Shown in pieces: positions 30,281 to 35,031 of a stretch of DNA of 64,000 bases (position 1 is the first letter of the stretch; each line of letters begins with the position of its first letter). The DNA is from Asanoa sp. WMMD1127 (GTDB lineage: Bacteria; Actinomycetota; Actinomycetes; Mycobacteriales; Micromonosporaceae), in contig NZ_JARUBP010000001.1 in assembly GCF_029626225.1 (NCBI RefSeq), forward strand, positions 868,001 to 932,000, in the 5' to 3' direction. Below the pieces are notes generated by a model. The model did not search any database and was not told the DNA's origin. It saw only the letters and a program-made list of their open reading frames with translations. A program made the position numbers and the translations under genes.

Positions 30281-32107
30281 ATGCCGATCACGAGTCGACC
30301 TGGCCGGTGGCTGCGCTACCTCGCGGCGCCGGCCCTCACCCTCGGGGTGATCGTCGCCCTGCCCGGCGCCGCCCCGTCCCCCGCGGCCGCGGCGCCCGCC
30401 CTGACGCCCGTCTCGGTGTCGTTCGGCCACGGCGGCACGCTGGCCGAGGGCAACCTGCTCGGGTTCAACGACTTCCACGGCTCCATCGACCCGCCCACCG
30501 GGTCCGGCGCCGCCGTCAACGGGGTCCCCGCCGGTGGCTCCGAATACCTCACCACCGCCGTCAAGCGGCTGCGGGCCGAGGCCAAGGCCGAGGGCCGCCT
30601 GAGCACCACCGTCGGCGCCGGCGACATGGTCGGCGCGACGCCGCTGGTCAGCGCCGCGTTCCACGACGAGCCGACGATCGAGATGCTCAACGTGATGGGC
30701 ATGGAGATCACCTCGGTCGGCAACCACGAGTTCGACGAGGGCACCGACGAGCTCAAGCGCCTGCAGTACGGCGGCTGCCACCCCGTCGACGGCTGCCAGG
30801 ACGGCGACCCGTTCTACGGCGCCGACTTCACGTACCTCGCGGCCAATGTCGTCACCAAGCGGCTCAACCTGCCGCTGCTGCTCCCCTTCAACATCCGCAT
30901 CGTCGACGGCGTGCCGGTCGGCTTCGTGGGCATGACGCTGGAGGGCACCCCGAGCATCGTGAACCCGGCGGGCATCCAGGACGTCGACTTCAAGGACGAG
31001 ATCCAGACCGCCAACAGGTACGCCGCGCTGCTGCGGCTGTTGGGCGTGAAGTCGATGGTCCTGCTGCTCCACGAGGGTGGTTCCCAGTCGGGCAGCCCGC
31101 AGCCGGTGGACGGCTGCAACAACTTCGCCGGCCCGGTGGTCGACATCGTCAAGGGCCTGCGCCCGGAGTACGGCATCGTCGTGTCCGGTCACACCCACCG
31201 CTTCTACTCGTGCGCGCTGCCGAACTCGGCCGGTGCCAATGTGGTGGTCACCAGCGCCGGCACCAACGGCCAGCTGGTCACCGACATCGACTACGCGCTC
31301 GACAAGAAGACCGGCAAGTTCGCCTCGATCACCGCCCGCAACGTGATCGCGGAGAACGGCGTCCGCAACCCGGACGGCACCTACCAGACGAACCCGGACG
31401 GCACGTTCGTCCGCAACGCGGCGCTGGTCGACCCGGCGGCGAAGCGGCTCGCCGACAAGTACCGGACCGCCGTCTCGCCGATCGCCAACGAGGTCGTCGG
31501 GGCCATCTCCGCCGACATCGTCCGGGACGTCCGGCCCAACCAGGAGAGCCCGCTCGGTGACGTGATCGCCGACGCGCAGCTGGCCTGGACCCAGGACGAC
31601 GGCGCGCAGATCGCGTTCATGAACCCGGGCGGCATCCGGGCGTCGCTCTCGTACGCCAACTCCCCCGGCGGCGAGGCGCCCGGCCAGGTCACCTACGGCG
31701 AGGCGTTCACCGTGCAGCCGTTCAACAACCTGGTCGTCACCCAGACCTTCACCGGCGCGCAGATCAAGGACGTGCTGGAGCAGCAGTTCGTCGGGTTCGG
31801 CGGGCAGACCACCCAGCGGGTGCTGCAGGTGTCGGCGGGCTTCACGTACACCTATGACACGACGCTGCCGGCGGGTTCCCGGGTGAGCGCGATCGCGCTC
31901 AACGGCACCCCGATCGACCCGGCGGCGACCTACCGCGTCACCACCAACGACTTCCTGGCCAACGGTGGCGACGGCTTCACCAACCTCAACGTGCGCACCG
32001 ACCGCACCACGGCGCCCGGCTTCGACGTCGACGCGCTGGTCGCCTATCTGGGCGAGAACGCCCCAGTGGCGCCCGGCCCGGCCGACCGGATCACCCGCGT
32101 CGGCTGA
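30281..32107 (+). CDS. Secreted 5'-nucleotidase / 2',3'-cyclic phosphodiesterase-like protein
   Basis: The 608-residue protein has a signal peptide (to about residue 38). Its N-terminal calcineurin-like metallophosphatase domain has NDFHG, GAGDMVGATP, GNHEFDEG, LLLHEG and SGHTH. The C-terminal 5'-nucleotidase substrate domain (TYGEAFTVQPFNNLVV, YRVTTNDFLANGGDGF) is also present. It should hydrolyse nucleotides outside the cell for phosphate and nucleoside salvage. AGGA lies seven bases before ATG 30281. It is divergent from pcrA and ends at its own terminator. Confidence 0.93.
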   Translation: MPITSRPGRWLRYLAAPALTLGVIVALPGAAPSPAAAAPALTPVSVSFGHGGTLAEGNLLGFNDFHGSIDPPTGSGAAVNGVPAGGSEYLTTAVKRLRAEAKAEGRLSTTVGAGDMVGATPLVSAAFHDEPTIEMLNVMGMEITSVGNHEFDEGTDELKRLQYGGCHPVDGCQDGDPFYGADFTYLAANVVTKRLNLPLLLPFNIRIVDGVPVGFVGMTLEGTPSIVNPAGIQDVDFKDEIQTANRYAALLRLLGVKSMVLLLHEGGSQSGSPQPVDGCNNFAGPVVDIVKGLRPEYGIVVSGHTHRFYSCALPNSAGANVVVTSAGTNGQLVTDIDYALDKKTGKFASITARNVIAENGVRNPDGTYQTNPDGTFVRNAALVDPAAKRLADKYRTAVSPIANEVVGAISADIVRDVRPNQESPLGDVIADAQLAWTQDDGAQIAFMNPGGIRASLSYANSPGGEAPGQVTYGEAFTVQPFNNLVVTQTFTGAQIKDVLEQQFVGFGGQTTQRVLQVSAGFTYTYDTTLPAGSRVSAIALNGTPIDPAATYRVTTNDFLANGGDGFTNLNVRTDRTTAPGFDVDALVAYLGENAPVAPGPADRITRVG

Positions 32108-32169: not shown

Positions 32170-32199
32170 TTGCGCCGGTTTGGGGGCCGCGGGCATACT
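32170..32199 (+). promoter_or_regulatory. Promoter of the chorismate mutase leader transcript
   Basis: TTGCGC (32170-32175) and CATACT (32194-32199) are spaced by 18 bp, fitting an actinobacterial sigma-70-type promoter. Transcription would begin about seven bases after the -10, at or next to the GTG at 32207, so the leader peptide would be translated from a leaderless mRNA. Confidence 0.6.
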
Positions 32200-32206
32200 T
32201 GCCCAC

Positions 32207-32275
32207 GTGATCCAGCAGCCGCGATTTTACTTTTACTACGGCACCGGGAGTCCGGCAGCTGTAGGTCGCGCCTGA
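32207..32275 (+). CDS. Phe/Tyr-rich leader peptide of a putative attenuator
   Basis: From GTG 32207 to TGA 32273-32275 runs a 22-residue peptide, (M)IQQPRFYFYYGTGSPAA followed by VGRA. Five consecutive aromatic codons (TTT TAC TTT TAC TAC, 32225-32239) are the hallmark of a leader peptide that senses Phe- and Tyr-tRNA. Both Phe codons are TTT, which is rare in such a GC-rich genome. The peptide sits between a promoter and a strong terminator, upstream of a chorismate mutase gene, the first committed enzyme for Phe and Tyr. There is no ribosome binding site, but a leaderless start is likely. Confidence 0.75.
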   Translation: MIQQPRFYFYYGTGSPAAVGRA

Positions 32276-32323
32276 GCACAAGACCTGCAAAAAGCCCCGG
32301 GCTCCTGGAGCCCGGGGCTTTTT
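32244..32323 (+). promoter_or_regulatory. Attenuator: terminator with competing antiterminator
   Basis: The terminator pairs AAAAAGCCCCGGGCTC (32289-32304) with its perfect complement (32308-32323) over a 3-base loop, ending in five Ts. The competing pairing is CCGGGAGTCCGG (32244-32255) with CCGGGCTCCTGG (32297-32308): twelve contiguous pairs including two G-U. This would break the terminator's left arm. Segment 32244-32255 begins five bases after the aromatic codons, so a ribosome stalled early in the run would leave it free, and one that reaches the stop codon would sit on the spacer between the two. The mechanism is inferred by analogy with phe, trp and his operon attenuation. Confidence 0.7.
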
Positions 32324-32386
32324 CGGCCTCGGGATCCGGCGGCCGCCGAGACGAGAAGACCTGACATGGCCCCCGAGGAGCATGAG

Positions 32387-32680
32387 ATGAGCACCAACGC
32401 CGTCGCCCAGCCGACCACCGGCACCGAAGACGCCGCCGCGGCGCAACGCATCCGCGCGATGCGCGAGCGGATCGACGAGATCGACACCGCCATCATCGAG
32501 CTGTGGCAGGAGCGAGCCAACCTGTCGCAGCAGGTCGGCGCGACCCGCGTCGCCTCCGGCGGCACCCGCCTCGTGCTGTCCCGCGAGCGGGAGATCCTGG
32601 AGAAGTTCCGCACCGCCCTGGGCGCCGACGGCACCCAGCTCGCGCTGCTGATCCTGCGCGCGGGCCGCGGCGCCCTCTAG
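32387..32680 (+). CDS. Chorismate mutase, AroQ class (intracellular actinobacterial type)
   Basis: It converts chorismate to prephenate, the entry to Phe and Tyr. The 97-residue all-alpha protein shows the AroQ pattern: RIRAMRERIDEIDTAIIELWQERANL, then ASGGTRLVLSRE and the C-terminal LLILRAGRG. It closely resembles Rv0948c of M. tuberculosis, which has low activity alone and is activated in complex with DAHP synthase through its C-terminus. ATG 32387 is chosen because GAGGAG lies six bases before it; an in-frame ATG at 32366 lacks a good site. The 5' leader encodes an aromatic-rich peptide and an attenuator. Confidence 0.92.
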   Translation: MSTNAVAQPTTGTEDAAAAQRIRAMRERIDEIDTAIIELWQERANLSQQVGATRVASGGTRLVLSREREILEKFRTALGADGTQLALLILRAGRGAL

Positions 32681-32692
32681 CGGCCTGCCCGC

Positions 32693-32924
32693 GATCGGCT
32701 CACGGTCGGCTCGCGGCCGGCTTACGGTCGGCTCACGATCGACCCACGATCGACCCGCGATCGGCCCGCGATCGGCCCGCGACCGACCCGCGAGGCCGCG
32801 ACCGACCCGCGAGGCCGCGACCGACCCGCGAGGCCGCGACCGACCCGCGAGGCCGCGACCGACCCAGGAGGCCGCGACCGACCCACGATCGGCCCGCGTC
32901 GACCCGCGATCGACCCGCGATCGG
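32693..32924. repeat. 11-bp and 19-bp tandem repeat array
   Basis: Eight degenerate 11-mers with consensus GRTCGRCYCRC run from 32693 to 32780. Then the 11-mer GACCGACCCGC alternates with an 8-bp insert GAGGCCGC, giving an exact 19-bp period (starts at 32781, 32800, 32819, 32838, 32857, 32876). A few more 11-mers follow. The array fills the space between the convergent chorismate mutase and FtsX-type genes. No gene is seen in it. Confidence 0.9.
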
Positions 32925-32946
32925 CAACACACCGACGCTTCGCGGC

Positions 32947-35031
32947 TCACTCGTAGCGGATCGCCTCGTGCCGCGTGGCCAGGCCGAGCAGCGGGAGCGC
33001 GAACGACGCGAACACCAGGGCCGCCAGCACGCCGGCGCCGATCATGCCGAGCACCGGCAGGCCCGGCCACGTCCAGACCAGGTTGTCGCCGCGGGTGGTC
33101 GCGTAGGCCGCGACCAGGCCGAGCGCGACCCCGACGAGCGAGGTCACCAGCATCGTCGCCGCCGTCTCGACCAGCAGCACCAGGCGCAGCTCGCCCAACC
33201 GCACCCCGGATGCCCGGAGCAGGGCGAACGGTCGCCGCCGCTCGGCCAGACCGCCGATCACGCCGCCGGTCAGGCCGAACGCGCCGAGGACGAGCACGAA
33301 CACCGCGGCCAGGCCGGCCAGGCGGTCGAAGTCGAGGAAGATCGTCTCGAGGTGGTAGTCGACCGGGTCCCGGTCGGTGTTGATGATCGCGTTGGGGACC
33401 AGTTTGGCCGCCTGGGTGCGCACCCGGTTCTCCGCGGGCAGGCTGCCGTCGGTCGGCACGTAGAGCTGGGCCACGGTCATGCCGGCGACGTCCGAGTTGG
33501 GCTCCACCGGGCCCCACTCGCTGGCGGGGTGCGGGCAGGTCGCGTACCGCACGCGGGCGAGGTCGGCGCACGAGATCACCGACCGGCCGCCCCACCGTTC
33601 GGCCACCGCGCCCGCCGCCAGCAGCGGCGCGACGACGTCCGGCGACACTGGACCGGTGTTGATCTGGACCACTCCCGGCCGCAGCCGCTGGTCTTCCTGG
33701 TCCGGCGGCGGTCCGGGCCGGTCGGCCGTGCTGGCGAGGAACGTGGCCGCCATCGCGGCGAGCGCGACGACGCCGACCGAGCGGAACGTCGACCGTGGGT
33801 CGTGCGCGATCCGCCGTGCGGCGAGCAGCGCGGGCGCCCGCCGGCTGACTCCCGCGACCGCGCGGGCCGCCAGCAGGCAGAGCCAGGGTCCGATCAGGAC
33901 CGCGCCGACGACCTGGAGGAGCACCAGGATCGGCTGGAGCTGGTCGACCGTCGTCGCGGGCAGCTCCAGCGGGATCAGGGCGAGCTGGCCGACGACGCCG
34001 ACGGCGAGGGGCAGGGCGGCCCACCGGGTCGGCGCCGGGCGGATCGTGCGCCGGTGCACGGCCAGCGGGGTGGCCTGCACGGGCCAGAGCGAGGCGAACG
34101 TCGTGCCGACGGCCAGCAGCGGCGCGCCGACCAGCACCAGCGCGAGCACCCAGCCGGGCACGGCGAGGTCGGCGAGCCAGAAGTGTCCACGTTGGAACAC
34201 GACGGTGGCGGCGAGCACCCGGCGGCCCAGCTCGTAGCCGCCCCAGGCGAGCAGCGCCCCGGCCCCGGCGGCCAGCGCCGTCTCGGCCGCGGCCAGCAGC
34301 GCCGTCTGCGCGCGGGTAGCGCCGACGAGCCGCAGCATCGCCAGGCGCCGCTCCTGTTGGGCGGCCGCCACCCGGGTCATCAGCACAAGGAAGATCAGCA
34401 CGGGTACGAGGACGAAGACCGCCACGCCCATGCCGAGGCCGGCCGCCTGCAGCGCGAGGATCCCGCCCCGCGGCGAGGTCCGGTAGAAGCCGTGCACCTC
34501 GCCGACCGAGCGCACGCCGCGCAGCTGCTCGGGCGTGCGGCCGATGACGGCGACGAGCTCGTCGGCGTGGGCCAGCCCGGCCGGGCCGATCGTCATCGTC
34601 GGCCGGCCCGGGAACCGGTCGTCGAGCTGGTCGTCGGGCGTGTCGGCGAGCAGCCGGCGCATGGCCGGTGACACCGCGATCTCGCCCGCGCCGGGCAACC
34701 GGTCGAGGCCCGGCGGCAGCGGCGGGTCAGCGCCGAGCGGGGCCACGTACGCCCGGATCATCGGGGTGCCGTCGAAGTAGTCGCTGACGGCGAGGAAGAG
34801 GGCGCCGTCGGCCTTCTCGGCCGGCGGGTCAGGAATCTCGTCGGTGACCGCGGCCGTCGCGGCGTCCTGCCAGCCGACGCGGGCGTCGCGCCCGATGGCC
34901 GCGAACGGCGCACAGATGCCGAGCAGCAGCAGCGTCGCGCCGACACCGACGCCGGTGGCGGTGAACGCCCGGCGGAGCCAGTGCTCGCGACCGCCGGCCA
35001 GCGCCAGCCGCAGCGCCGTCAGCGGGTTCAT
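32947..35031 (-). CDS. ABC transporter permease, FtsX/MacB-like, two FtsX domains
   Basis: The 694-residue protein has an N-terminal membrane helix (TGVGVGATLLLLGICAPF), a large extracytoplasmic domain of about 200 residues, a first FtsX block of three helices near residues 210-330, further helices, a second outer domain and a final FtsX block ending LPLLGLATRHEAIRYE. It forms an exporter or envelope-remodelling complex with the ATPase encoded upstream, whose stop overlaps its start (ATGA). The substrate is unknown; antimicrobial peptide or lipoprotein handling is typical for the family. Confidence 0.85.
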   Translation of the reverse strand: MNPLTALRLALAGGREHWLRRAFTATGVGVGATLLLLGICAPFAAIGRDARVGWQDAATAAVTDEIPDPPAEKADGALFLAVSDYFDGTPMIRAYVAPLGADPPLPPGLDRLPGAGEIAVSPAMRRLLADTPDDQLDDRFPGRPTMTIGPAGLAHADELVAVIGRTPEQLRGVRSVGEVHGFYRTSPRGGILALQAAGLGMGVAVFVLVPVLIFLVLMTRVAAAQQERRLAMLRLVGATRAQTALLAAAETALAAGAGALLAWGGYELGRRVLAATVVFQRGHFWLADLAVPGWVLALVLVGAPLLAVGTTFASLWPVQATPLAVHRRTIRPAPTRWAALPLAVGVVGQLALIPLELPATTVDQLQPILVLLQVVGAVLIGPWLCLLAARAVAGVSRRAPALLAARRIAHDPRSTFRSVGVVALAAMAATFLASTADRPGPPPDQEDQRLRPGVVQINTGPVSPDVVAPLLAAGAVAERWGGRSVISCADLARVRYATCPHPASEWGPVEPNSDVAGMTVAQLYVPTDGSLPAENRVRTQAAKLVPNAIINTDRDPVDYHLETIFLDFDRLAGLAAVFVLVLGAFGLTGGVIGGLAERRRPFALLRASGVRLGELRLVLLVETAATMLVTSLVGVALGLVAAYATTRGDNLVWTWPGLPVLGMIGAGVLAALVFASFALPLLGLATRHEAIRYE

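Follow-up and report, generated by a model that had tools for sequence, protein, structure and literature searches.

The chorismate mutase locus

The window, meaning the whole 64,000-nucleotide stretch of DNA that was analysed, carries on its plus strand a chorismate mutase (CM) gene preceded by a compact leader region, whose elements are collected in Table 1. The gene had been called a chorismate mutase in an earlier note made from the sequence alone, and profile searches agree: the downstream ORF matches the NCBIfam chorismate mutase model NF005894 at 1.3e-31 and also Pfam CM_2. Its start codon is ATG 32387, with a Shine-Dalgarno sequence GAGGAG at 32375–32380, and an alternative in-frame ATG lies at 32366. 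According to an excerpt of PMC11802643, the CM product is prephenate, from which Phe and Tyr are made. The upstream neighbour on the plus strand is a 5′-nucleotidase-like gene (30281–32107); some 60 nt separate its end from the −35 element. As the next family-matching gene past CM lies on the minus strand (32947–35031), CM looks to be transcribed as a monocistron. Right behind CM we observed a degenerate G+C-rich tandem repeat (32688–32925 of the window), in which a 19-bp unit, CCGCGACCGACCCGCGAGG, is present in about 7.9 copies at 32755–32909.

Table 1. Features of the CM leader and gene in the window.
Feature	Position	Strand	Basis and remarks
−35 element TTGCGC	32170..32175	+	sequence and partial conservation
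−10 element CATACT	32194..32199	+	18-nt spacer from −35; sequence and conservation
Leader peptide ORF	32207..32275	+	GTG start, 22 codons, TGA stop; sequence and family alignment
Regulatory codons TTT TAC TTT TAC TAC (Phe-Tyr-Phe-Tyr-Tyr)	32225..32239	+	sequence, family counts
1:2 hairpin 5′ arm UACGGC (spans the last Tyr codon and the Gly codon after it)	32237..32242	+	alignment pairing
1:2 hairpin 3′ arm GCUGUA (mostly GCCGUA in the aligned relatives)	32258..32263	+	alignment pairing
Antiterminator 5′ arm AGUCCGG	32249..32255	+	96.5% of alignment cells paired
Antiterminator 3′ arm CCGGGCU, within terminator 5′ arm	32297..32303	+	alignment pairing
Antiterminator inner helix 5′ arm GUAGGUC, overlapping 1:2 3′ arm	32261..32267	+	95.4% and 93.2% of cells paired (two segments)
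Antiterminator inner helix 3′ arm GACCUGC	32282..32288	+	alignment pairing
Intrinsic terminator 5′ arm	32289..32304	+	16 perfect pairs, loop of 3; 95.2% of cells paired
Intrinsic terminator 3′ arm, UUUUU at its end	32308..32323	+	pairing with 32289..32304; conservation
Chorismate mutase (CM), monofunctional, 97 aa from ATG 32387	32387..32680	+	NCBIfam, Pfam

Direct reading of 32207–32275 gave the leader peptide MIQQPRFYFYYGTGSPAAVGRA and thus confirmed the 22-residue, GTG-opened peptide with five consecutive aromatic codons (32225–32239) described before. Since GTG 32207 is located only 7 nt downstream of the −10 element CATACT, the message is probably leaderless. For the promoter proposed with it, TTGCGC-18-CATACT, the letters and the spacing are present and the −10 is conserved, but the promoter is absent from a simple sigma-70 consensus scan of the leader region (threshold 9 of 12 consensus letters), so the call rests on conservation. 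Likewise, the reported 16-bp terminator does form 16 perfect pairs (32289–32304 with 32308–32323), but its T-tail is short: the five U’s make up the base of the 3′ arm and are followed directly by CGGCC. The terminator is near-palindromic and scores on the minus strand too. Folding of 32200–32335 beats all of 200 dinucleotide shuffles (z −3.79), and the aromatic pattern TTYTAYTTYTAYTAY occurs a single time in the 7.97-Mb genome, at the window leader. Rfam leader and T-box families gave 0 gathering-score matches in the whole window, the best leader family, Thr_leader, reaching 26.5 bits where the cut-off is 55, and the peptide matched no NCBIfam model.

Conservation of the leader in the family

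To assess the conservation of the leader we turned to the window’s family, where CM was detected in 148 of 150 sampled genomes. Upstream DNA was read for 90 CM loci (L037–L126) from 86 of these 148 genomes; the 30 best-scoring loci were taken, and the remainder was hand-picked for breadth and second copies. A leader is present before 85 of the 90 loci, a count that includes the window itself, one site fetched twice (L126 = L064) and the divergent L091. The other five are L092, with a candidate leader recognised by eye only, and four second CM copies (L105, L117, L118 and L119) that are devoid of a leader and perhaps serve secondary metabolism. Unlike these second copies, which belong to four other genomes, the two CM copies of genome G034, L091 and L092, each have their own divergent Phe-bearing leader; the peptide of L091, VTSALFTGFLGFTGPSPKPCRA, is Phe-rich.

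The leader scan gave 87 rows, with none for L092, L105 and L118. After removal of L117 and L119 (second copies, leader absent), L126 and L091, the alignment A1 contained 83 rows and 82 distinct leaders. A covariance model of the leader, R1, was used for genome searches. Of 291 relatives in a named collection the 80 best were retained, and R1 located a sense-strand leader ahead of CM in all 80. This set is not independent of A1 in that some genomes, e.g. Asanoa hainanensis, are shared. These named loci include Asanoa, Micromonospora, Actinoplanes, Salinispora, Dactylosporangium and Glycomyces. CATACT or CATAAT precedes the start codon by 6–7 nt in 81 of 84 family leaders, in a scan that demanded a −10-like hexamer, and a −35 element with at least four of six letters, at the best of spacings 15–19, was found in 59 of 84.

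Elsewhere in the window’s own genome, the next-best R1 match after the window leader and its antisense scored 24.8 bits (L129). It sits before an ABC-transporter-like ORF and has no Phe/Tyr run, and we rejected it as a second copy of the leader. Aromatic-rich short ORFs were found neither within 700 nt upstream of the DAHP synthase gene (PF01474) nor within 700 nt upstream of the prephenate dehydratase gene, which is unlinked to CM. A control pattern for trpE, TGGTGGTGG, occurred 458 times versus 488 for the reversed control; being no commoner than the latter, it is uninformative on trpE.

Codons and RNA in the leader

The aromatic run is shared by the related leaders, as anticipated by the earlier proposal of an attenuator: each of the 83 aligned leaders has three to six in-frame Phe/Tyr codons. 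All 81 leaders that carry a conserved GG in frame have Tyr directly ahead of it, and 66 of them have Phe at the third codon back; the two remaining leaders, with the GG out of frame, were left out of the count. The 3′ half of the leader is read in one frame in 66 of 83 cases and in another in 15, probably a single lineage that includes Glycomyces, while the GG itself is shifted in 2. Because the 3′ half is conserved in sequence but falls in two main frames, the alignment argues that it is maintained as RNA and not as peptide.

This bears on the idea that the nascent peptide FYFYYGTGSPAAVGRA itself arrests the ribosome, for which the nearly invariant C-terminal peptide of many family leaders could be taken as a sign. 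The same RNA, however, is read in the other frame in the 15 leaders mentioned (with endings such as GRRSR and SRRSR), and the frame is shifted also in two Streptomyces-like leaders, L151 and L156, leaving peptide arrest a very improbable explanation.

We also compared codon choice. Of the Phe codons, 124 of 168 are TTT in the leaders, against 0 of 86 in six ORFs of the window (Fisher P 6e-35). This is a first estimate, since many related genomes contributed leaders whereas a single window supplied the background. TAT/TAC usage does not differ between the leaders and the six ORFs. The TTT excess may reflect either rare-codon sensing or avoidance of pairing.

Three competing helices

To the pairings described earlier we added a third helix, the 1:2 hairpin, which begins at the last Tyr codon (UACGGC 32237–32242 with GCUGUA 32258–32263). 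Over A1 it is paired in 98.8% of cells with 6 double-change cells, a number reached in 0 of 500 shuffles; the number of pairs showing a double change was reached in 9 of 500. In five leaders the change of the Tyr codon from TAC to TAT is matched by G to A in the opposite arm. The terminator is paired in 95.2% of cells, and its 53 double-change cells are matched by none of 500 shuffles.

The antiterminator had been drawn as a 12-bp pairing of 32244–32255 with 32297–32308. All 12 pairs are standard (two are G-U), but the outer five are not conserved, with pairing in 65.9% of cells. We therefore rejected the 12-bp form as a conserved element and retained 7 bp of it, together with an inner helix that likewise has 7 bp. 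So defined, the antiterminator is paired in 95.6% of cells and shows 4 double-change cells, a count equalled or exceeded in 9 of 500 shuffles; 28 of 500 shuffles reached its covariation score. Of the covariation looked for in both pairings, that of the terminator is thus strong and that of the antiterminator modest, and the antiterminator 3′ arm is constrained by the terminator as well. When the helices were slid along the alignment as a control, at most 62.5% of cells were paired for any of the three, and at most 48.6% for the antiterminator.

The arrangement is that expected of an attenuator: the antiterminator uses, and so excludes, the terminator 5′ arm, and over A1 the 1:2 hairpin both overlaps the regulatory codons and competes with the antiterminator. 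In 81 of 83 leaders, 12 nt lie between the first base of the last aromatic codon and the antiterminator. A ribosome holding this codon in its A site would have its leading edge nearby, as that edge lies about 12 nt ahead of the A-site codon.

A simpler reading is that the hairpin merely terminates the upstream 5′-nucleotidase gene, whose stop lies at 32107, and that the aromatic run arose by chance. The end of that gene on the same strand about 60 nt before the −35 element, the score of the near-palindromic terminator on the minus strand and the lack of a listed promoter between gene and hairpin in the consensus scan would all fit. Yet a conserved −10 element and ORF lie between the gene and the hairpin, the Phe/Tyr codons, the 1:2 hairpin and their spacing are all conserved, and similar leaders stand ahead of CM in other families (see below). 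We regard such a coincidence as extremely unlikely.

Attenuation model and folding with a masked ribosome

We consider it highly likely, judging from the sequence comparison, that the leader is a ribosome-mediated transcription attenuator for CM. Attenuation by Phe/Tyr codons had been proposed before and is now well supported by leader conservation, reading frames and covariation. The start site, leader translation, stalling and read-through are all proposed. Transcription would begin at or 1–2 nt from GTG 32207, and ribosomes would translate the leaderless 22-codon ORF behind RNA polymerase. When charged Phe- or Tyr-tRNA is scarce, the ribosome would stall at the TTT/TAC run, where it occupies the 1:2 hairpin 5′ arm and leaves the 3′ side free to pair downstream (GUAGGUC with GACCUGC, AGUCCGG with CCGGGCU). 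This pairing would capture the terminator 5′ arm, and polymerase would continue into CM. With both tRNAs plentiful, a ribosome at UGA 32273 would cover the inner helix, so that the terminator forms and CM stays untranscribed. In most relatives, an untranslated leader should be biased towards termination by the 1:2 hairpin. The cell would thus very probably make CM only when Phe/Tyr run short.

We examined these states by folding RNA that stops short of the terminator 3′ arm, with the ribosome modelled as a 26-nt mask centred on a codon, a footprint convention found in an excerpt of PMC13236596. The antiterminator probability exceeds 0.5 in 31% of the 83 leaders without a ribosome, in 86% with a ribosome at the first Phe/Tyr codon and in 77% with one at the last. 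Static folding thereby supports stalling as the predicted trigger in most relatives. A ribosome placed on the stop codon blocks the inner helix, whereas the outer helix keeps a mean probability of 0.74 and exceeds 0.5 in 75% of the 83. In the model this speaks against the simplest reading, unless the helix cannot close sterically around the ribosome.

For the window RNA, truncated and ribosome-free, the probability of the 1:2 hairpin, which here contains a G-U pair, is near 0 and that of the antiterminator 0.99; the off state in the window’s species was not reproduced by static folding. The antiterminator reaches 0.99 with the ribosome on any of the first four aromatic codons and 0.28 with the ribosome on the last Tyr, where the median over the 83 leaders is 0.79. 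The earlier note had cautioned that a ribosome at this codon would cover part of the antiterminator. The 12-nt distance between the last aromatic codon and the conserved antiterminator, kept in 81 of 83 leaders, lessens the concern without dispelling it, as the value for the window shows.

Leaders outside the family

R1 matches 164 of 394 genomes of the class at E ≤0.05; many of the weak matches span only model positions 84–113, i.e. the terminator, and were not counted as leaders. The strongest matches outside the family precede CM, in the genus g70 and the families f3, f4 and f34. By its inferred name g70 is a large Streptomyces-like genus, with peptides such as MRKQLSFLFTYGTGRSGRHGSS. We read 48 of the 51 CM places outside the family (L277 with just 116 nt upstream; L145 is the leader ahead of the CM of L270). 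A Phe/Tyr-rich short ORF lies within 420 nt upstream in 25 of these 48 loci versus 3 of 624 control segments, and was not found by the same test in the other 23. The leader motif, which was chosen after the data had been seen, is present in 33 of 48 loci and missing in 15, versus 0 of 624 control segments; all control segments were drawn from 28 longer loci only. A hairpin of at least 6 pairs at the Tyr codon occurs in 32 of the 33 motif loci, yet also in 36% of shuffles. Family f2 has Phe/Tyr leaders at 6 of 12 loci, and all six belong to g45, a Mycobacterium-like genus by its inferred name; their peptide ends in RRFFYGYRPAVPVV or a close variant of it.

Family f20 raises the question of whether the leader governs access to the CM ribosome-binding site, i.e. 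attenuation of translation. Ten of its 13 fetched loci keep the TTT-TAY codons and the Tyr hairpin (L275, L276, L278, L279, L282, L283, L287, L289, L291 and L292) with no strong U-tract terminator found: a crude test called none in six, and only 7-bp stems with scattered T’s in four. In the six f2 leaders this test called no terminator in four and mistook the 1:2 hairpin for one in two, even though a G+C-rich hairpin followed by T’s is legible by eye; since the test misses these hairpins, the f20 negatives are weak. In addition, f20 has a hairpin with compensating changes that could hold the GAAAGG site before the start codon. It is paired in 91.7% of cells and has 6 double-change cells; for the joint structure, 7 of 500 shuffles scored as high. 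The hairpin is clear in only about 3 of 10 single-sequence minimum-energy folds. From these sequences, f20 may have swapped the terminator for a ribosome-binding-site hairpin, i.e. a translational output. In the window, by contrast, the Shine-Dalgarno sequence lies 51 nt past the 16-bp terminator and outside it, and we give translational attenuation there very little credence, preferring attenuation of transcription.

The distribution may tentatively be read, at somewhat less than even odds, as an old Phe/Tyr sensor (leaderless ORF, TTT Phe codons and a hairpin at the last Tyr) joined to different outputs across several Actinomycete families, with TTT as a tuned part. If so, the output would be termination in the window’s family and in the Streptomyces-like genomes and ribosome-binding-site closure in f20, and TTT, which is absent from the counted window genes, would be a tuned sensor component.

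Significance and comparison with known systems

CM diverts chorismate from Trp synthesis into that of Phe and Tyr, and aromatic supply in Actinomycetes also feeds natural products. Through the attenuator, tRNA charging would govern the Phe/Tyr branch point throughout a large Actinomycete group. Moreover, the 82 distinct aligned leaders form a data set on ribosome-RNA spacing in attenuators.

The kind of control is already known from pheL-pheA and aroR-aroF, while the CM attenuator of this group is apparently undescribed. We found none for Actinobacteria in the literature searched, which was mostly open-access, and excerpts of PMC4633059, PMC9094748 and PMC2965389 do not mention chorismate. In the parts available, a comparison of Actinobacteria names no conserved structures beyond those for Trp, Cys and Leu and the ileS T-boxes (PMC1262725), and most of 8 leaders in S. 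lividans are leaderless, with none for Phe/Tyr (PMC8079986).

As far as excerpts of PMC1262725, PMC8079986 and PMC13236596 go, actinobacterial trp and ilvB leaders share a short ORF, a terminator and an alternative pairing with the window leader; they carry Trp or branched-chain codons, whereas the window leader carries Phe/Tyr codons. Excerpts indicate that evidence favours attenuation of transcription by an upstream ORF in the ilvB1 leader of M. tuberculosis (PMC13236596), and that mutation of the candidate codons ahead of S. coelicolor ilvB had no effect (PMC1262725). Going by the title of Canestrari 2020, the leaderless polycysteine short ORFs of mycobacteria are also said to sense an amino acid; they resemble the window leader as leaderless amino-acid-sensing short ORFs but sense cysteine. 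In an excerpt of PMC13236596, the polycysteine control of M. smegmatis is termed translation attenuation.

For Phe and Tyr there are two precedents. The attenuator of aroR-aroF in C. glutamicum was reportedly described in 2014 by Neshat. As described in PMC11802643 and PMC7356990, it too has an actinobacterial leader peptide with Phe-Tyr-Phe and stalling under Phe limitation, but it controls DAHP synthase, whereas the window leader precedes CM. Excerpts differ on its effector: AroR responds to Phe, with Tyr having no effect, in PMC11802643, and both Phe and Tyr are spoken of in PMC7356990. Because of these differing reports, a response of the window leader to both Phe and Tyr rather than to Phe alone is uncertain. 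The pheL-pheA system of E. coli, regulated by charged Phe-tRNA according to an excerpt of PMC11802643, likewise has a leader peptide ahead of a gene with CM activity. E. coli pheA, however, encodes a bifunctional CM/prephenate dehydratase, whereas the window CM is monofunctional, and the window leader differs further in lacking an NCBIfam peptide match, in its probably leaderless translation and in mixing Tyr codons into the regulatory run.
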